DNA from: Thauera phenolivorans
GTDB lineage: Bacteria > Pseudomonadota > Gammaproteobacteria > Burkholderiales > Rhodocyclaceae
DNA length: 64,000 bases
Direction: 5' to 3'
Assembly: GCF_001696715.1 (NCBI RefSeq)
Contig: NZ_MBFM01000001.1
Span: forward strand, 420,994 to 484,993
A model generated the notes under the pieces. It was given only the letters and a program-made list of their open reading frames with translations. It was not told where the DNA came from and made no database searches. Positions 44,257 through 54,517 of this stretch are shown here, piece by piece (position 1 is the first letter of the stretch; every line of letters starts with the position of its first letter). The position numbers and the translations under genes were made by a program.

Positions 44257-46968
44257 CTAGGCCGCCGCCGCAGCGATCATGCGCCTGATTTCCGGCACGC
44301 AGGAGCCACAGGCGGTCCCGCAGCCGAGCCGGCCCTGCAAGGCCTCGAGGCGGTCGCCGCCGGCGATGCCCGCGGCGATGTCGGCCTCGCCGACACCGAG
44401 ACAGCTGCACACGACGCGGCCCTTGGCGGGCGCCGACAGGGGCGGTTTCGCCAGCGGCGCAAGCAGCCAGCGGCGCAGCGCCAGGGCTTCGCGCTGACCC
44501 ACGACCGCATCGATGAGCCACTGCGCGGCCGCGGTCTCGCCCGCCAGGCGCAGGCCGACCAGCCGATCGTCCTCGATCAGCATGCGCTTGCCCACGCCGC
44601 GGTGCGGGTCCTCGTAGCGCAGCACCGTGTCGCCGTCCAGGCCGAGCAAGGCGTCCAGCGCGATCAGCCAGTCGCCCGGGATCGGCTCGTCGTGGGCGAC
44701 ACGCATCACCACCGCAGGCGTGTCACGGCCGGCGAGCGAGAGCGAGGCGTAGGCGAAGCGCTCCAGCCACGGCGACAGCGCCTCGGCTTCTTCCGCGGCG
44801 CTGCGCCCGGGACGCTCGGCACGCACCAGCAGCATGCGCCAGGGCAGCGCCACCCGCTCGATGCGCACCGCCGCATGCTTGAGGCCAGGCTGCTTCGAGA
44901 ACGGGTCGAAGTCATCCGCGAAGAGCAGGTTGACGCCCGCCGAATTGAGCACCCTGCGCCCCCAGTGCATGGCGACGAAGGCCTGCCCGCGGCGCAGGTC
45001 GGCCGACGCCGCGACCGGCAGCACTAGCTCGCCGCGCCGGCTCGTCACCCGCACCAGCTCGCCGTCGGCGAGGCCGTGCGCCGCGAGATCGCCGGCGTGC
45101 AGCTCGATGCGGGGCTCGCCGGCGTGGCCGTGCAGGCGGGCGACCTTGCCGCTGCGGCTCATACCATGCCACTGGTCGCGCAGGCGGCCACTGGTGAGAT
45201 GCAGCGGATGGCGCGCATCCACCTCCGCCGCGCCCGGCGCCACGGCGGGTACGACGAAGCGGGCGCGTCCGCTCGGCGTCGGAAACCGGCCATCGGCGAA
45301 AAGGCGGGCCCGCGCGGCGGCGTCGGCGAGCGCGGCCCCGGCGGGGAAGGGCCATTGCTGCGGGCCTGCCGCCTCGAGCAGGCCGTAGTCGAGGCCGCCG
45401 ATGTCGAGGTCGCGCCCGATGGTGCTCGCGGCATGCTCGGCGAAGATGGCCTGCGGCCCGGCGTAGTCGAACATGCGCGCGGCCTGCGGCTTGCCGATGC
45501 GCGGCGCGAGGGCGCGCGCGAAGTCGCACGCGATGCGCCAGTCCGGCCGCGCCTCGCCCGGCGCCGGCACCGCCGGGCGGACCCGGCTGATGCGGCGCTC
45601 CGAGTTGGTCACCGTGCCGTCCTTCTCGCCCCAGGTTGCGGCGGGCAGCATGAGGTCGGCGAAGGGCGCGGTGTCGGTGCTGCGGAACGCCTCCTGCAAC
45701 ACGACGAAGTCGCAGGCGGCGAGCGCCTCGCGCACCAGCGCCTGGTCGGGCATCGACTGCGCCGGGTTGGTGCACGCGATCCAGATCGCCTTGACCCTGC
45801 CCTCGCGCGCGGCGCGGAACAGTTCGACCGCGGTCAGTCCCGGCTCCGCGGGCACGCTGTCCACGCCCCACAGGCGGGCGACCTCGGCACGATGCGCCGG
45901 GTTGGCGAGGTCTCGGTGCGCGGACAACAGGTTGGCCAGGCCACCGACCTCCCGCCCGCCCATCGCATTGGGCTGGCCGGTCAGCGAGAAGGGGCCGCAA
46001 CCGGGCCTTCCGATCCTGCCGGTGGCGAGCGACAGCGCGATCAGCGCGGTACCGTTGTGGGTGCCCTGCACCGACTGGTTGAGGCCCTGGCACCATAGCG
46101 ACAGCGCCGCCGGCGCCCGTCCCCACCAGCGCGCGGCGGTGACGATGTCTTCCGCCGCCACCCCGCACACCTCGGCTGCGCGCCCGGGCGACACCGTGCG
46201 GACGTGCGCGCGCAAGGCCTCGAAGCCTTCGGTGTGGGCGGCGACCCAGGCTTCGTCGACGAGGCCCTCCTCCACCATCACGTGCAGCATCGCGTTGAAC
46301 AGCCAGATGTCGGTGCCGGGCAGGATGGCGAGATGGAGATCGGCCGCCGCCGCGCTGTCGGTGCGGCGCGGGTCGACCACGATCAGCTTCATCTGCGGCC
46401 GCCGCGCCCTCGCCGCCTCGATCCGCCCGAAGGCGACCGGGTGCGCATAGGCCGGATTGGCGCCCGCGATCAGGATCACATCGGCGTGGTCGAAGTCCTC
46501 GTAGGCGCACGGCGGGGCGTCCGCTCCCAGGGTCTGCTTGTAGGCCGCGACCGCGCTCGACATGCACAGGCGCGAGTTGGTGTCGATGTTGTTGCTGCCG
46601 ATCAGTCCCTTCATCGCCTTGTTGAAGACGTAGTAGTCCTCGGTCAGCAGCTGGCCCGAAACGTAGAATGCGACCGCATCCGGCCCGTGCTCCGCGATGA
46701 CTGCGGCGAAGCGTCGGGCGGCGATCTCGATCGCCTGCTCCCAGCCGACGCGCCGGCGCGCTTCGCCGCGGGCACTGCGGTATTCGGGATGCAGCAGGCG
46801 GGTATCGGGGCCCGCGCTCAGGTGCAGGGTCGAGCCCTTGGTGCACAGGCGGCCGAAGTTGGCGGGATGCTCGGGGTCGCCGCGCACGCCGGTGATGCGC
46901 GCGCCGTCGTGCCCGATCAGCACGCCGCAGCCCACGCCGCAGTAGGGACAGGTGGCCTTGGTTTCCAT
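44257..46968 (-). CDS. nasA: Assimilatory nitrate reductase, catalytic subunit
   Basis: 903 aa from the ATG at 46966-46968 (METKATCPYCGVGCG), chosen over an earlier ATG because GGAGA lies five bases upstream. N-terminal [4Fe-4S] ligands C7, C10, C14 and a Cys near 41 (RLCTKG), then the molybdopterin guanine dinucleotide domains (NIDTNSRLCMSSAVAAYK, with the Mo-ligand Cys). A C-terminal BFD-like [2Fe-2S] module has CSCLGVGEADI and CGTACGSC. It reduces nitrate to nitrite in the cytoplasm. It is the last gene of the nir-nas operon and converges with ppk2. Confidence 0.95.
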   Translation of the reverse strand: METKATCPYCGVGCGVLIGHDGARITGVRGDPEHPANFGRLCTKGSTLHLSAGPDTRLLHPEYRSARGEARRRVGWEQAIEIAARRFAAVIAEHGPDAVAFYVSGQLLTEDYYVFNKAMKGLIGSNNIDTNSRLCMSSAVAAYKQTLGADAPPCAYEDFDHADVILIAGANPAYAHPVAFGRIEAARARRPQMKLIVVDPRRTDSAAAADLHLAILPGTDIWLFNAMLHVMVEEGLVDEAWVAAHTEGFEALRAHVRTVSPGRAAEVCGVAAEDIVTAARWWGRAPAALSLWCQGLNQSVQGTHNGTALIALSLATGRIGRPGCGPFSLTGQPNAMGGREVGGLANLLSAHRDLANPAHRAEVARLWGVDSVPAEPGLTAVELFRAAREGRVKAIWIACTNPAQSMPDQALVREALAACDFVVLQEAFRSTDTAPFADLMLPAATWGEKDGTVTNSERRISRVRPAVPAPGEARPDWRIACDFARALAPRIGKPQAARMFDYAGPQAIFAEHAASTIGRDLDIGGLDYGLLEAAGPQQWPFPAGAALADAAARARLFADGRFPTPSGRARFVVPAVAPGAAEVDARHPLHLTSGRLRDQWHGMSRSGKVARLHGHAGEPRIELHAGDLAAHGLADGELVRVTSRRGELVLPVAASADLRRGQAFVAMHWGRRVLNSAGVNLLFADDFDPFSKQPGLKHAAVRIERVALPWRMLLVRAERPGRSAAEEAEALSPWLERFAYASLSLAGRDTPAVVMRVAHDEPIPGDWLIALDALLGLDGDTVLRYEDPHRGVGKRMLIEDDRLVGLRLAGETAAAQWLIDAVVGQREALALRRWLLAPLAKPPLSAPAKGRVVCSCLGVGEADIAAGIAGGDRLEALQGRLGCGTACGSCVPEIRRMIAAAAA

Positions 46969-47005
46969 CCGGGTCTCCGCGATTCTCATCATCAGTGGTT
47001 CGGGT

Positions 47006-48763
<1,758 letters not shown>

Positions 48764-48797: not shown

Positions 48798-50012
48798 TCA
48801 GATCTTCGCCGAACTCAGGTGCGCCGCGCCCCAGGTGGTGCGCCAGCGCGTCTTTACCGCGGTGAGGCCGATGAGCGCGAACACCGCGAGCGCGGCGAAG
48901 ATCAGGAAGCCGGCCTGGTAGCTGCCGGTCAGCTGCTGCGAGTAGCCGAGCGAGGACGCCAGGTAGAAGCCGCCCACCCCGCCCGCCATGCCGACCAGAC
49001 CGGTCATCACGCCGATCTCCCTGCGGAAGCGCTGCGGCACGAGCTGAAACACCGCGCCATTGCCCATGCCGAGCGCCAGCATCGCGCACACGAACATCGC
49101 CAGCGCCATCCAGGCCTCGGGCAGGCCGAAGCTGACGATGGCGAGGAACAGCGCCGCCAGCAGGTACATCACGGTCAGCGACTTCACCCCGCCGATGCGG
49201 TCGGCGACGTTGCCGCCGATCGGGCGCACCAGCGATCCGGCGAACACGCAGCCGGCGGTGAAGAAACCGGCGGTCTTCGGGTCGAGGCCGTACTGGGTGT
49301 TGAAGTAGATCACCAGCGAGGAGGCGAGGCCGACGAAGCCGCCGAAGGTGACCGCATAGAAGAACATGAACCACCACGCGTCCGGGTCCCTGAGCACCTT
49401 TAGGTATTCGCCGAGGGTCTTGGGCGGCGGGGCGTCCGGGGCGTCCCTGGCCATCAGGCAGAAGGCGACGAGGACGACGAGCAGGGGAATCAGCACGATG
49501 CCGAAGACGTTGGTCCAGCCAAAGGCGGCGGCCAGCCCCGGCGCGAACAGCGCGGCGAGCGCGGTGCCGGAGTTGCCGGCCCCGGCGATGCCCATCGCCG
49601 TGCCCTGGTGCTGCGGCGGATACCAGCGCGAGGCGAGCGGCAGCGCGGCCGCGAAGGAGGCGCCGGCCACGCCGAGGAAGACGCCGAGCACCAGCACTTC
49701 CGCATAGCTGTGGACGCCGGCCAGCCACGCGTAGAACATCGCGGCGATGACGATGATCTGGCCGATGATGGCCGCCTTCTTCGGCGACAGGCGATCGACC
49801 AGGATGCCCATCACGATGCGCAACAGCGCGCCGGCGAGCACCGGCGTGGCCACCATCAGGCCCTTTTCGGCGTGCGACAGGCCGAGGTCGCGGGCGATGC
49901 CGACCCCGAGCGGGCCGAGCACGACCCACACCATGAAGGCGAGGTCGAAGTACAGGAAGGCGGCGATCAGGGTGGGCGTGTGGCCGGCCTGCAGAAAGGA
50001 GTTCTTGTCCAT
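48798..50012 (-). CDS. narK: NarK/NasA-type nitrate/nitrite MFS transporter
   Basis: 404 aa from the ATG at 50010-50012 (MDKNSFLQAGHTPTLIAAFLYF). Twelve membrane helices with the nitrate-porter pattern: FDLAFMVWVVLGPLGVGIA, RIVMGILVDRLSPKKAA, the nitrate signature GAGNSGTALAALFAPGLA, and GLVGMAGGVGGFYLASSLG. It imports nitrate (and perhaps exchanges nitrite) for NasA and NirBD. It starts 20 bases after nirD. Confidence 0.93.
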   Translation of the reverse strand: MDKNSFLQAGHTPTLIAAFLYFDLAFMVWVVLGPLGVGIARDLGLSHAEKGLMVATPVLAGALLRIVMGILVDRLSPKKAAIIGQIIVIAAMFYAWLAGVHSYAEVLVLGVFLGVAGASFAAALPLASRWYPPQHQGTAMGIAGAGNSGTALAALFAPGLAAAFGWTNVFGIVLIPLLVVLVAFCLMARDAPDAPPPKTLGEYLKVLRDPDAWWFMFFYAVTFGGFVGLASSLVIYFNTQYGLDPKTAGFFTAGCVFAGSLVRPIGGNVADRIGGVKSLTVMYLLAALFLAIVSFGLPEAWMALAMFVCAMLALGMGNGAVFQLVPQRFRREIGVMTGLVGMAGGVGGFYLASSLGYSQQLTGSYQAGFLIFAALAVFALIGLTAVKTRWRTTWGAAHLSSAKI

Positions 50013-50032: not shown

Positions 50033-50344
50033 TCAGATCGACAGAAAGACCCGTCCGTCCTCGACCTTCACGCGGAAGGTGTCGCACGAACCGATGTCGG
50101 GGGCGACGGCATTGCCGTCCGCGAGCGTGAAGGCCCAGCCGTGCAGCGGGCAGCTCACCCTGCGGCCATGGACGATGCCCTGCGACAGCGGGCCGCCCTT
50201 GTGCGCGCACTTGTCGTGCAGGGCGAAGACCTCGTCGTCCGCGTTGCGGAACAGGGCGATGTCGCCGCCGGCCGGCCTGCGCACCACGCGGGCACCCAGC
50301 CGGGGGATGTGGTCCAGCGGGCAGACCAGTTTCCAGTTGCTCAT
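50033..50344 (-). CDS. nirD: Nitrite reductase (NADH) small subunit
   Basis: 103 aa Rieske-like protein: LVCPLDHIPRLGARVVRR, then HDKCAHKGGPLSQG and CPLHGWAF. The CxH/CxxH ligand positions are kept (C-A-H and C-P-L-H). NirD assists NirB. It lies 37 bases after nirB and is co-transcribed. Confidence 0.95.
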   Translation of the reverse strand: MSNWKLVCPLDHIPRLGARVVRRPAGGDIALFRNADDEVFALHDKCAHKGGPLSQGIVHGRRVSCPLHGWAFTLADGNAVAPDIGSCDTFRVKVEDGRVFLSI

Positions 50345-50381: not shown

Positions 50382-52874
50382 TCAGGCCTCGAGCGCGAGC
50401 GGGATGAACTGGCGGAGGCGATCGCCCTCGCGGCTTGTCTGCCAGGGGTCGCGGGCGTCCTTGAGCGCGTCGAGCAGGCGGGCGTGCAGTGCGCGGCGGC
50501 TGTCGCCGTCGGCGACCACCCGCGCCTTCACGTGGTCGAGTCCGACGCGTTCCAGGTAGTGGCAGGTGCGCTCCAGGTACCAGCCTTCCTCACGGTAGAG
50601 CTGCAGGAAGGCGCCCGCGTACTCCATCACCTCCTCGTCGCTGCCGACCTTGCACAGGTACTGCGCGACCTCGGTCTTGATGCCGCCGTTGCCGCCGACG
50701 TAGAGCTCGTAGCCGGAATCGACGCCGATCACGCCGACGTCCTTGATGCCGGCCTCGGCGCAGTTGCGCGGACAGCCGGACACCGCGAGCTTCACCTTGT
50801 GCGGGGCGTACATGTCGAACAGCATCCGCTCGAGCTTGACCCCCATGTCCATCGCCAGCTGGGTACCGAAACGGCAGTGCTCGGCGCCGACGCAGGTCTT
50901 CACGGTGCGGATCGACTTGCCGTAGGCGTGGCCGGACACCATGCCGGCGGCGTTGAGATCGGCCCAGATCGCCGGCAGGTCCTCCTTCTTCACCCCGAGC
51001 AGGTCGATGCGCTGGCCGCCCGTCACCTTCACCGTGGGCACCTGGTACTTCTCGGCGGCGTCGGCGATCGCACGCAGTTCGGAAGGGGTGGTGAGCCCGC
51101 CCCACATGCGCGGCACCACCGAGTAGGTGCCGTCCTTCTGGATGTTGGCGTGGGCGCGCTCGTTGATGAAGCGCGACTGCGGATCGTCCTTCGCCTCGTG
51201 CGGGAAGCTCGAGATCAGGTAGTAGTTGATCGCCGGCCGGCACTTCTCGCAGCCGTCCGGCGCCTTCCAGTTCAGCGTGCCGAAGACGGCTTCCCGGGTG
51301 GTGAGCCGATGCTTGACGATCGCCTCGCGCACCACCTTGTGGGAGTGCTCGGTGCAGCCACATACCGGTTTGTCGCGGGTGCCGACGGCCTGGTAGGCCC
51401 CGCCCACGGTGGAAGCGAGGAGCTGCTCGACGAGGCCGGTGCAGGAGCCGCAGGAGGATGCCGCCTTGGTGTGCTTCTTCACCTCGTCCAGCGAGAACAG
51501 GCCCTGCTCCTTGATCGCCTTGACGATCGTGCCCTTGCACACGCCGTTGCAGCCACACACCTCGGCGCCGTCGGGCATGCTCGCCGCGCGGTTCTCGCCC
51601 TTGTGGCCGGCGTCGCCGAGCCGGGTGCTGGCGAACGAATGGCCGAACATCAGGTGATCGCGGAGCTCGTGGATGTCCTGGCGCTCCTTCATCAGCTGGA
51701 AGTACCAGGCGCCGTCGGCGGTGTCACCGTACAGCACCGAGCCGACGATGCGGCTGTCGCGCAGCACGAGGCGCTTGTAGACCCCGCCCTGGCGGTCGTG
51801 GAGCACGATCTCCTCGGTGTCCGGCCCGCCGCCGAATTCGCCGGCGGAGAACACGTCGATGCCGGTGACCTTGAGCTTGGTCGAGGTCACCGAGCCCTCG
51901 TAGCGGCCGATGCCGAGGTTGGCAAGATGGTTGGCGCACACCTTGCCCTGCTCGAACAGCGGCGCCACCAGCCCGTAGGCCACGCCGCGGTGGGCGACGC
52001 ATTCACCGACCGCATAGACGCGCGGGTCGGTAACCGTCTGCAGCGTGTCCGAAACGTGGATTCCGCGCACCCGGCCGCTGCCGCAGTACAGGCCCGCCGA
52101 CTCGGCGAGGGCGTAGTTGGGCCGGATCCCGGCGGCAACCACCACGAGGTCGGCGGGGATCTCCGCGCCGTCCCGGAAGCGCACCGCGCCGACACGCGCC
52201 TCCCCCTCGCCGGACGCCGGCAGCAGGGCCTCGGTGTCGCGCGCGAGCAGGAACTTCATCCCCTTCGCCTCGAGCGAGGCCTGCAGCATGCCGGCCGCGG
52301 CCTCGTCGAGCTGGCGCTCCATGATCCACTCGCCGAGGTGCACCACGGTGACGTCCATGCCGCGCAGCATGAGGCCGTTGGCGGCTTCGAGACCGAGCAG
52401 GCCGGCGCCGATCACCACCGCGTGGCGGTACTTGCCGGCGGCGTCGATCATCGCCTCGGTGTCGGCGATGTCGCGGTAGCCGAGCACGCCCCGCAGTTCC
52501 CTGCCGGGGATGGGCGGAATGAAGGGGGTGGAACCGGTGGCGAGCAGCAGGCGATCGTATCCGGCTTCGGTGGCGCTGCCGTCGTCCGCCTCGGCAATCA
52601 CCCTGCGCCGGGCGCGGTCGATCTTCGTCACCTTGCAGCCGGCGTGCAGGGTGATGCCCTTGTCGCGATACCAGTCGAGATCGTTGAGCATGATCTCGGG
52701 CAGGCTCATCTCGCCCGCCAGCACCGGCGACAGCAGGATGCGGTTGTAGTTGCCGTGGGGTTCGGCGCCGAACACCGTGATGTCATAGAGGTCGGGGCCG
52801 AGCTTGAGCAGCTCCTCGATGGTCCGGATGCCGGCCATGCCGTTGCCGACGAGGACGAGTTGCATCTTCTTCAT
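50382..52874 (-). CDS. nirB: Nitrite reductase (NADH) large subunit
   Basis: 830 aa from the ATG at 52872-52874, with AAGGAG six bases upstream; 37 upstream in-frame codons lie in the regulatory leader and are not coding. FAD motif LVLVGNGMAGIRTIEELL, NAD motif VVIGAGLLGLEAANGL, BFD-like [2Fe-2S] cluster (CGCNGVCKG and SSCGSC), and the sirohaem/[4Fe-4S] ligands CVGAEHCRFG and SGCPRNCAEAG. It reduces nitrite to ammonium with NADH in the cytoplasm. First gene of nirB-nirD-narK-kinase-nasA. Confidence 0.97.
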   Translation of the reverse strand: MKKMQLVLVGNGMAGIRTIEELLKLGPDLYDITVFGAEPHGNYNRILLSPVLAGEMSLPEIMLNDLDWYRDKGITLHAGCKVTKIDRARRRVIAEADDGSATEAGYDRLLLATGSTPFIPPIPGRELRGVLGYRDIADTEAMIDAAGKYRHAVVIGAGLLGLEAANGLMLRGMDVTVVHLGEWIMERQLDEAAAGMLQASLEAKGMKFLLARDTEALLPASGEGEARVGAVRFRDGAEIPADLVVVAAGIRPNYALAESAGLYCGSGRVRGIHVSDTLQTVTDPRVYAVGECVAHRGVAYGLVAPLFEQGKVCANHLANLGIGRYEGSVTSTKLKVTGIDVFSAGEFGGGPDTEEIVLHDRQGGVYKRLVLRDSRIVGSVLYGDTADGAWYFQLMKERQDIHELRDHLMFGHSFASTRLGDAGHKGENRAASMPDGAEVCGCNGVCKGTIVKAIKEQGLFSLDEVKKHTKAASSCGSCTGLVEQLLASTVGGAYQAVGTRDKPVCGCTEHSHKVVREAIVKHRLTTREAVFGTLNWKAPDGCEKCRPAINYYLISSFPHEAKDDPQSRFINERAHANIQKDGTYSVVPRMWGGLTTPSELRAIADAAEKYQVPTVKVTGGQRIDLLGVKKEDLPAIWADLNAAGMVSGHAYGKSIRTVKTCVGAEHCRFGTQLAMDMGVKLERMLFDMYAPHKVKLAVSGCPRNCAEAGIKDVGVIGVDSGYELYVGGNGGIKTEVAQYLCKVGSDEEVMEYAGAFLQLYREEGWYLERTCHYLERVGLDHVKARVVADGDSRRALHARLLDALKDARDPWQTSREGDRLRQFIPLALEA

Positions 52875-52921
52875 GAGCATCTCCTTGGAAAGCGGATTCA
52901 GGCGGCGTCGAGGGCGAGCCC

Positions 52922-52980
52922 GAAAAGGAACGGCGCCCATCTCCTCCCGGCCGCGGGCCGGAGGGAAATGGACGCCGTTG
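52922..52980 (-). terminator. Leader terminator of the nir-nas operon (attenuator)
   Basis: Minus-strand hairpin with arms AACGGCG and CGCCGUU at the base, CCAU/AUGG in the middle and CCCUCCGGCC/GGCCGGGAGG at the top around a CGC loop. It is followed by CCUUUUCG. It lies 48 bases before the nirB ATG, inside the leader. Its left arm is made from the loop and right side of the ANTAR hairpin P2, so the two structures exclude each other. Confidence 0.85.
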
Positions 52981-52986
52981 TCCATT
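52967..52986 (-). promoter_or_regulatory. ANTAR-type RNA hairpin P2 in the nirB leader
   Basis: A seven-pair stem AAUGGAC/GUCCAUU closing the hexaloop AACGGC, which has the A at position 1 and G at position 4 expected of ANTAR targets. It overlaps the left arm of the terminator, so binding here would favour read-through. Confidence 0.8.
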
Positions 52987-53020
52987 GGTCAGGGATGTTG
53001 CGGATGGTGCGTCGAATCCG

Positions 53021-53036
53021 GAGCCGCCGTTGGCTC
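53021..53036 (-). promoter_or_regulatory. ANTAR-type RNA hairpin P1 in the nirB leader
   Basis: A five-pair stem GAGCC/GGCUC closing the same hexaloop AACGGC as P2. It starts about ten bases after the predicted transcription start and 34 bases before P2. Two tandem hexaloop hairpins form the known ANTAR recognition element. Confidence 0.8.
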
Positions 53037-53052
53037 AGTCTCGGTATTCCTT

Positions 53053-53070
53053 AAGCAGGGACCGTGCCAG
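53053..53070 (-). promoter_or_regulatory. Sigma-54 promoter of the nir-nas operon
   Basis: Minus strand CTGGCACGGTCCCTGCTT: the -24 TGGCACG is perfect, the -12 CTGCT is one base from TTGCT, and the invariant GG (53068-53067) and GC (53056-53055) are exactly ten bases apart. Predicted start is near 53043-53045, giving a leader of about 170 nt before nirB. Confidence 0.85.
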
Positions 53071-53144
53071 ATCCTCGGATCGCACCGCCCCCCCTTAAGC
53101 GAAGGGTTTGAGAGCGCGATGAAGGGCGCGCGCGCGAGGGTTTG

Positions 53145-53161
53145 CGCACTATTGCAGTGCA
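53145..53161 (-). promoter_or_regulatory. NtrC-like enhancer site, proximal
   Basis: On the minus strand TGCAC-N7-GTGCG, close to the NtrC consensus TGCAC-N7-GTGCA. The centre is about 110 bases upstream of the predicted sigma-54 start, the classic enhancer distance. Confidence 0.65.
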
Positions 53162-53175
53162 GCATGCGCTGCGGC

Positions 53176-53192
53176 CGCACGCGATCGGTGCG
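53176..53192 (-). promoter_or_regulatory. NtrC-like enhancer site, distal
   Basis: CGCAC-N7-GTGCG, symmetric, one mismatch to consensus in each arm. Its centre is 31 bases (three helical turns) from the proximal site, at about -141. It lies just past the nasR stop codon. Confidence 0.55.
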
Positions 53193-53202
53193 CCAGCGGC
53201 GC

Positions 53203-54426
53203 TCAGCGACGCCCGGCGAGGAATGCGCGTGCGACCGCCACCAGGCGCTCGCCCCGCTGCATCGCCAATCGCCGCAGCTGCCGGTAGGCGGCGTCCTCGG
53301 ACAGGCCCTCCTCGGCCATCAGCAGGCCCTTGGCGCGCTCGATCAGCTTGCGCTCCTCGAGCGCGCCGCGCACCGCGTGCAACTCGTCGCTGATCGACTG
53401 CAGACGGCGCGACTGCGCCTGCAGCATGTCGAGGAGCGAGCGCCCCAGGCGCGGGCCCGCTTCCCCGGCGACGATCGGGTCGGCCGCCTGCGCCGCATCG
53501 ACGAAAACCGCAGGCGGGCCGCCCGGCGCCGCCGAGGCGGGCAGCGCCAGCTCACCGAGAGTGGCGCGCGCATCGGCGGTCTCGTCCACGCACAACTGCT
53601 GCAGCCCGGCGGCAAGCTGGGCCTCGATGTTCTTCATAGCGTCGATCCGCGTCGTGCAGCAGGCGAACCAGGATTCGCTGAGCGCCGCCTTGAGCGCAGC
53701 CCCCGGCCTGGCGGTGCACAGCATGCCGCGCAGTCGTTCGAGCTCGCCCATCGCGGCCTCGGCCTCGGCGGCGCGCCAGCGCGCCACCACGTCGATCTCG
53801 CCGAACTCGGCGAACACGCCGAAGCAGCGCTGCTGAGCCTCGATCAGGTGCAGCAGACGGTCGCGGTGCGTGGCGTCGGCCCGCCCCGACGCCAGCAGCA
53901 GCCCACCGGCGGCGCGCTCCTGACCGGCGAGCTCCTTGCCCTGCATGAAGTTGAACATCGCCACCAGCGCACGCGAGATCGCCGGATCGCCGGCGCTATC
54001 GGCAGCCTCGAACACCACCGCGAGCAGATCGGCGATCAGGCGGTCGAAGGCGGCGCAGGCCTGCTCCGGCTTCAGCGCAAGACTACCGATGCCCTCACGC
54101 AGCGCAGTGAGGCCGTCGAGCCCGTGCACGACCGCGGCGATGCGGGTGAACAGCCGGGCGTCGCCCCCCGCCTCCGGCTCGAGGGCGGCCAAGCGCTCGC
54201 GCAGCGCCGCTTCCGCCCCGAGACATTCGGCGATGCGCTGCGAACGCTGGTCGGCGAAGCGGCGGCCGCCGGAGGCGAGGAAGACGCTGGAACTGCCACG
54301 CTCCTTTTGCAGCACGTGCACCAGGCGGGCGATGTCGGAGACCAGTTCGCAGGCCGCGTGCAGGCGCTCCAACGCCCGGATCTCGCACTGCCTGGCCGCA
54401 GCCAGGTAATCCACGACCGACTTCAT
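53203..54426 (-). CDS. nasR: Nitrate/nitrite-responsive antiterminator NasR (NIT plus ANTAR)
   Basis: 407 aa from the ATG at 54424-54426 (MKSVVDYLAAARQCEIR), with GGGAGG upstream. The N-terminal helical NIT domain (about 25-260) includes LVHVLQKERGSSSVFLASGGRRF, the nitrate/nitrite sensor pattern. The C-terminal ANTAR domain (about 330-400) has LEERKLIERAKGLLMAEEGLSEDAAYRQLRRLAM. In the prototype, nitrate binding lets ANTAR bind two leader hairpins and prevent termination. The matching RNA element lies directly downstream, before nirB. Confidence 0.95.
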   Translation of the reverse strand: MKSVVDYLAAARQCEIRALERLHAACELVSDIARLVHVLQKERGSSSVFLASGGRRFADQRSQRIAECLGAEAALRERLAALEPEAGGDARLFTRIAAVVHGLDGLTALREGIGSLALKPEQACAAFDRLIADLLAVVFEAADSAGDPAISRALVAMFNFMQGKELAGQERAAGGLLLASGRADATHRDRLLHLIEAQQRCFGVFAEFGEIDVVARWRAAEAEAAMGELERLRGMLCTARPGAALKAALSESWFACCTTRIDAMKNIEAQLAAGLQQLCVDETADARATLGELALPASAAPGGPPAVFVDAAQAADPIVAGEAGPRLGRSLLDMLQAQSRRLQSISDELHAVRGALEERKLIERAKGLLMAEEGLSEDAAYRQLRRLAMQRGERLVAVARAFLAGRR

Positions 54427-54436
54427 CCCGCCTCCC

Positions 54437-54476
54437 AAGAAAGAATCGCTCCACGCCGGACGACGCGAAGCGATTC
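54437..54476 (-). terminator. Hairpin with U tract between rlmB and nasR
   Basis: Perfect eight-base arms GAATCGCT (54443-54450) and AGCGATTC (54469-54476). In the minus-strand transcript UUUCUU follows the hairpin. It ends ten bases before the nasR ATG, so it could terminate rlmB reads or limit transcription into nasR. No ANTAR-type hexaloop pair was found here. Confidence 0.55.
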
Positions 54477-54517
54477 CTTTCGAAGCAAGATTCACACCGT
54501 CAAGCGGCGGCGCGTTC

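Follow-up and report, generated by a model that had tools for sequence, protein, structure and literature searches.

The stretch between nasR and nirB (positions 52875 to 53202 of the window, by which we mean the whole 64,000-nucleotide stretch of contig NZ_MBFM01000001.1 that was analysed) raises the question of how the nitrate/nitrite assimilation operon of Thauera phenolivorans is controlled. The original prediction was that nitrogen limitation acts at transcription initiation and nitrate/nitrite at antitermination. As far as sequence can speak for it, this two-layer reading is supported by the candidate RNA reader, by NtrC and RpoN, and by covariation in the first leader hairpin, P1; two checks in series—initiation through NtrC and sigma-54, then antitermination through NasR—very probably control the operon. 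The genes concerned are:

44257..46992, minus strand: nasA-type molybdopterin nitrate reductase with a C-terminal BFD-like domain
47006..48763, minus strand: PP2C phosphatase - Ser/Thr kinase fusion
48798..50012, minus strand: narK-type nitrate/nitrite transporter (TIGR00886, 305.5 bits, just missing the cut-off of 311.7; start chosen by us)
50033..50344, minus strand: nirD, nitrite reductase small subunit (TIGR02378, 86.4 bits, over cut-off)
50382..52874, minus strand: nirB, nitrite reductase large subunit (TIGR02374, 888.6 bits; AAGGAG at 52886-52881)

The nasA-type protein matches the assimilatory NasA and NasC models at 8.6e-144 and 6.3e-137, and none of the best 25 NCBIfam families listed for it is over its cut-off. 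The genes nirB-nirD-narK-kinase-nasA probably form one transcript. The PP2C phosphatase-kinase fusion (47006-48763) sits within a nitrate operon, and in genome G142 a kinase with a PP2C match likewise comes after narK (locus L192, 3671-5344).

Three DNA elements that could govern initiation lie upstream of the leader:

53177..53191, palindrome without assigned strand: NtrC-type site GCACCGATCGCGTGC, GCAC-N7-GTGC, centre 53184 (about -141)
53146..53160, palindrome without assigned strand: NtrC-type site GCACTGCAATAGTGC, GCAC-N7-GTGC, centre 53153 (about -110)
53054..53069, minus strand: sigma-54 promoter TGGCACGGTCCCTGCT with exact GG-N10-GC, rpoN being present in the genome

Re-reading the minus strand over 52700-53500 puts the GG of the sigma-54 site at 53068-53067 and the GC at 53056-53055, with N10 between them; the exact GG-N10-GC promoter that had been described was found at 53054-53069, and the two NtrC-like sites, 31 bp apart, were re-read at 53184 and 53153. 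If the C of the sigma-54 site is taken as -12, transcription would start at about 53043, and the enhancer positions of about -110 and -141 are reproduced on the same count. In the enterobacterial glnA enhancer a pair of NtrC sites near -110 and -140 is separated by about 31-32 bp, and the window is like it in NtrC spacing and position. The genome encodes one NtrC over cut-off (693.8 bits) and one RpoN. Together with the GG-N10-GC element and the upstream palindromes, these proteins make up the set expected of an NtrC-dependent promoter, which the site would appear to be.

The leader that follows contains two hairpins and a terminator:

53021..53036, minus strand: P1 hairpin, arms GAGCC and GGCTC around the A1/G4 hexaloop AACGGC (fold; covariation in relatives)
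52967..52986, minus strand: P2 antiterminator hairpin, arms AATGGAC and GTCCATT around the A1/G4 hexaloop AACGGC (fold; near-invariant core)
52929..52979, minus strand: terminator stem-loop built with the P2 loop and 3' arm, then CCUUUUC at 52928-52922

Re-reading located P1 and P2, with their identical hexaloop, and the terminator exactly where the prediction had put them on the minus strand. Two six-base loops with A1 and G4 are one mark of an ANTAR target, found here as AACGGC in both P1 and P2; another is that P2 and the 5' arm of an intrinsic terminator share sequence, as they do here, with a U-run that is imperfect (UUCCUUUU). The 60 nt holding the terminator stem fold at -43.1 kcal/mol (z -6.2 against shuffles), compared with -5.9 for P2 alone and -7.3 for P1, and the difference between P2 and the terminator is as expected where the terminator is the default structure. 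The fold of the whole 174-nt leader beats all but 1 of 200 shuffles. A simple terminator scan did not report the 52929-52979 stem-loop, presumably because the U-run is broken. An open frame runs from ATG 52985 through P2 into nirB; it was taken as chance, since AAGGAG stands before ATG 52874.

The candidate reader of these hairpins is the product of the upstream gene:

53203..54495, minus strand: nasR, NIT-ANTAR nitrate/nitrite antiterminator (NIT 1.2e-53, ANTAR 1.1e-18)

The end of nasR lies about 134 bp upstream of the promoter, and the 3.69-Mb genome has no ANTAR match other than NasR; the expectation of an ANTAR reader encoded directly upstream is borne out, with NIT and ANTAR in one chain. 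NasR matches the Klebsiella NasR structure (4akk) at 1.1e-54 over residues 20-427. With residue correspondence taken from a numbering offset of 27 that was deduced within the analysis, and residue roles as given in PMC7496416, the RNA-binding residues R340, K341 and K347 of the Klebsiella protein are kept as R382, K383 and K389, and E175/R176 of its predicted nitrate pocket as E193/R194. K345 is replaced by R387, a K345R change that behaves like wild type in Klebsiella NasR according to PMC7496416, and W362 by Tyr. The autoinhibitory E191, which pairs with R340 in Klebsiella, aligns with Thr209, and the off-state contact of the Thauera protein may therefore differ.

Leaders of relatives were gathered through NasR relatives in 36 of 121 related genomes (E 1e-20), in 114 of 398 phylum genomes (E 1e-25, many of the matches spanning the NIT part only) and, within the family to which genome G120 belongs, in 56 of 220 genomes (E 1e-80), with 80 kept named loci in addition. 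The 195 loci screened comprise 165 reached via nasR-type proteins and 30 (L141-L170) that owe their discovery to the promoter-plus-P2 pattern. In 129 of the 165 nasR-fetched loci a P2-like hexaloop hairpin comes after a sigma-54 site; the other 36 lack the pair by the patterns used, and some of these encode NIT proteins without ANTAR. Over all 195 loci the pair occurs in 159, of which 30 have no P1 of at least 4 bp by the strict rule. A first detector (75 of 140 loci) applied overly strict rules to P1 and the terminator and was superseded. Removal of duplicates and of leaders with a terminator score below 9/12 left a set of 118 leaders, the window included, in which P1 stem pairing was no selection criterion.

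The NtrC-type sites recur in this set. Of the 118 leaders, 83 have one or more exact GCAC-N7-GTGC sites in the 200 bp preceding the promoter and 35 have none there; in a control region of equal size, 500-700 bp upstream and mostly within nasR, none of the 118 has one, and mononucleotide shuffles of the upstream stretches lead one to expect about 0.8 leaders. Two such sites are found in 25 leaders, 21 of which have them 31 or 32 bp apart.

P1 is kept as a structure. When it is placed by best match to a 10-base core holding the two inner pairs, A1 and G4, pairs 3-8 are paired in 112, 97, 98, 99, 80 and 80 of the 118 leaders, where the shuffle means are 68, 57, 52, 57, 48 and 47, and each of these pairs shows six pair types; A1 is present in 117 and G4 in 114, the placing consensus itself containing both. 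A separate alignment of 26 rows without the window, drawn from loci picked with a paired P1, has 36 two-sided cells against 11.3 when shuffled (0 of 500 shuffles), and its paired cells fall from 93.7% to 26-51% on sliding the partner. Alignment of relatives' leaders had been proposed as a check on the hairpins, and P1 passes it in both the 26-row alignment and the 118-leader set. The P2 core GGACAAMGGCGTCC is nearly invariant among the aligned leaders: three of its four pairs are constant, and the fourth is changed on both sides in a single row of the 26. P2 hardly varies and was itself a selection criterion, so covariation neither supports nor refutes it. The upper stem of the terminator shows compensatory variation, with several standard pair types in relatives when the partner is placed by best pairing.

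A covariance model built from the 26 relatives' rows with the window left out (R1) scores the leader at 80.9 bits, with E-values of 2.8e-18 over the window and 1.6e-16 over the genome. Over the whole genome the next best match has E 2.2 and no other is below E 2, from which the NasR regulon in this genome is probably one operon. Two other genomes have a second sigma-54 plus P2 match, at a distance from the nasR leader of about 3 and 11 kb (G054:C1:1054092 and G322:C1:167709, respectively), and NasR may serve more than one operon there.

The spacing between the two hairpins sets this leader apart from earlier sets of ANTAR targets:

52987..53020, minus strand: long linker between P1 and P2, 34 nt, or 36 nt if both stems are taken as 5 bp
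53001..53020, minus strand: possible linker hairpin CGGAT-N10-ATCCG, not above chance

The curation rule for ANTAR targets gives a linker of 2-25 nt (PMC8164766), and that of the window, at 34-36 nt, falls outside it. The eut leaders have linkers of 5-12 nt, and linkers of 3 or 14 nt drastically cut induction, the 14 nt in eutP (PMC3369931); EutV antitermination in vitro is reported to be abolished by a +20 nt linker (PMC8934654). The 2-25 nt rule is a description of earlier sets, not a proven requirement for NasR. After six of the 118 leaders with a P1-core match below 8/10 were dropped, the remaining 112 have linkers of 9-15 nt (34 leaders), 17-20 nt (7), 23-29 nt (47) and 33-76 nt (24). The linker is longer than 25 nt in 37 of the 112, although the leaders are related and their long linkers are not independent events; in two of the 37 (L102 and L119) an additional A1/G4 hexaloop hairpin stands at 10 nt from P2. 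Linkers of 10-11 nt occur in five leaders from genomes of the same class (L131, L132, L133, L135 and L136).

If the linker folded into a hairpin, P1 and P2 could come closer together. As the reason for the long linker of the window this was rejected, the linker hairpin having p 0.51 against dinucleotide shuffles (MFE). Among relatives, p is 0.1 or lower in 9 of 24 leaders with linkers of at least 31 nt and in 10 of 47 with linkers of 23-30 nt, a modest excess in related rows; the hairpin is conspicuous in several, such as L017, L022, L220 and L199, and a MAFFT/alifold alignment of the linkers gave no consensus structure. By eye, many comamonad linkers, L065, L082, L093 and L052 among them, may form a short GTC(T)-N4-(A)GAC hairpin a few nt ahead of P2, and relatives show changes that look compensatory. 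Variovorax-type leaders have a short linker of about 12-15 nt, and most of them show an extra AGACC...GGTCT-type hairpin between promoter and P1, at the place that P1 occupies in Thauera-type leaders and again with apparent compensatory changes by eye; at L035 4420-4524 and L036 4393-4497 the extra hairpin has an A1/G4 hexaloop, giving three hexaloop hairpins. We regard the linker spacing as real variation that known ANTAR rules do not explain.

Two Rfam families come close to this leader. The narK RNA (RF03032) matches the window at 27.7 bits (E 0.013), below its gathering cut-off of 43.2 bits, and P11 (RF00625) at 19.4 bits (E 0.22), below its cut-off of 70 bits; since both fall short of their gathering scores, neither was accepted as a direct label. 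The narK structure line leaves P2 unpaired. A gathering scan with Rfam 15 covered 20 loci: 15 nasR-linked leaders, L196 (a nasR locus in which no leader was found) and four that narK or P11 had retrieved. No nasR-linked leader in the scan is over any Rfam 15 gathering score, and only L171 (narK) and L182 (P11) of the four fetched loci match at these cut-offs. A cobalamin riboswitch was seen elsewhere in locus L023.

Across 229 class genomes there are 11 narK matches, 9 with both A1/G4 hexaloop hairpins and 6 with the sigma-54 pattern, and 10 P11 matches, all 10 with the P2 A1/G4 hexaloop and all 10 with the sigma-54 pattern; narK is over cut-off in only 2 genomes and P11 in 1, so most of these matches are sub-threshold. 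R1 matches 20 of the 21 narK/P11 loci at E 0.0011 or better, two places being counted twice. Locus L178 is probably not a real locus of this kind. The order in G142, probably a relative of Pseudomonas, is NMT1-like binding protein, receiver-ANTAR protein, narK RNA, NarK transporter, kinase, P11, nirB. L171 1501-1567 (narK RNA) and L182 1501-1640 (P11) both lie within L192, in front of narK and nirB, respectively, and both have a sigma-54 site and ANTAR-type hexaloop hairpins. By these features narK RNA and P11 look like members of the same leader family. P11 is filed in Rfam as an sRNA gene, whereas its anatomy suggests a nirB operon leader. For P. aeruginosa it is treated as a small RNA regulating the nirB operon and is discussed in worm learning (both as described in PMC12080996); if P11 belongs to the same family, that small RNA would be a prematurely ended nirB leader. 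Among the literature matches listed, in a search mainly of papers open without subscription, no paper joining narK RNA or P11 to ANTAR was found.

Three other explanations of the leader were weighed. Hairpins that arose by chance because the intergenic region is rich in GC, with an ordinary sigma-54 promoter in front of them and no attenuation, would fit the negative terminator scan and the near-chance frequency of single motifs: the window has 6 matches to GCAC-N7-GTGC where 2.9 are expected, and 3 to the sigma-54 pattern with at most one mismatch where 1.9 are expected. With single DNA motifs so near chance, the case rests on their ensemble and on conservation, and there the chance explanation fares badly enough that we give it almost no weight: the leader matches at 80.9 bits a model built without it, P1 covaries, and a composite DNA pattern of promoter plus P2 has 37 matches in 31 of 399 order genomes while reversed-pattern columns give zero. 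(The composite pattern misses the leader of the window itself because its spacing range is too short.) That the leader is read by some other signal, or by a NasT-type two-component ANTAR protein in place of NasR, is suggested by G142, where the leaders adjoin the NMT1-like binding protein and the receiver-ANTAR protein, a NasS/NasT-like pair; we consider it very improbable in T. phenolivorans, where NasR is the only ANTAR match of the genome and the end of nasR adjoins the leader, and such a leader stands in the same locus in 129 of the 165 nasR-fetched loci.

More weight, though still little, goes to the proposal that P2 alone is the NasR site in this species and that P1 is either left over or serves separately as a recruitment hairpin, the linker being too long for one dimer to serve both hairpins. 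The linker of 34-36 nt speaks for it, as does crystal work on EutV in which the minimal site is described as one hexaloop contacted individually (PMC8934654). The strength of P1 covariation also follows linker length: it is strong in the 34 leaders with linkers of 9-15 nt, present in the 54 with 17-29 nt, where pair 3 is near the shuffle ceiling, and weaker in the 24 with linkers of 31 nt or more, where pair 6 has no signal (paired in 19 of 24, with shuffles averaging 19.6). In those same 24 leaders, however, pairs 4 and 5 are above all 500 shuffles (22 of 24 against a shuffle maximum of 21, and 20 of 24 against 19) and pair 3 ties the highest shuffle, and the P1 core and stem are kept over all 118 leaders. 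A role for P2 alone is unlikely, and we favour the reading in which NasR uses both hairpins.

Under the favoured reading, with P1 and P2 both read by NasR, nitrogen limitation would lead phosphorylated NtrC, bound at about -110 and -141, to activate sigma-54 RNA polymerase at 53054-53069. Transcription would then begin near 53043, a position that follows from the sites and from the single ntrC and rpoN of the genome. When nitrate and nitrite are absent, the terminator stem at 52979-52929 would take up P2 and transcription would stop before nirB; when either is present, NasR is predicted to bind the A1/G4 hexaloops of P1 and P2 and hold P2 as antiterminator, and with P2 held nirB-nirD-narK-kinase-nasA would be transcribed.

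The nasF operon of Klebsiella oxytoca is under Ntr/sigma-54 control and has nasR upstream; it starts with nasF, whereas the operon in the window starts with nirB. In the Pseudomonas aeruginosa nirBD-PA1779-cobA leader the reader is reportedly NasT, in contrast to the one-component NasR of the window. To judge from the title of Romeo 2012, that operon is a nirB operon under antitermination, as here. Like the window, the nasF leader combines a NIT-ANTAR reader and dual A1/G4 hexaloop hairpins with a P2 that overlaps an intrinsic terminator in front of a nitrate assimilation operon (PMC3369931, PMC3369936, PMC7496416). P2 is described as competing with the terminator (PMC3369936, PMC3369931), and Klebsiella NasR as binding the dual hairpin in a nitrate-dependent manner, with read-through rising from 5% to 52% (PMC7496416). 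The eut leaders of Enterococcus faecalis, with EutV, share the dual hexaloop antiterminator and the competition of P2 with the terminator; they differ in signal, in reader and in their linkers of 5-12 nt (PMC3369931).

The window adds one leader to the NasR family, and the two-layer design of Klebsiella nasF is already known. That design recurs in 118 distinct nasR-linked leaders (window included), yet the 15 that were scanned all fall below the Rfam 15 gathering scores. As the genome has one ANTAR match and one leader that fits the model, mutation of nasR or of a loop should have a clear-cut outcome. The long linker is the one feature of specialist interest beyond confirmation. Tentatively, and aware that the idea may well prove wrong, we suggest that the NasR leaders of betaproteobacteria are a class of ANTAR target in their own right. 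In this class P1 and P2 would work together over 20-60 nt, and the gap would frequently hold a third hairpin that lacks a hexaloop (placed 5' of P1 in Variovorax-type leaders); narK RNA and P11 would be fragments of this one leader family. If this is true, the spacing rule derived from eut would not be general. The natural linkers of 23-60 nt make the use of two hexaloops by one ANTAR dimer directly testable.
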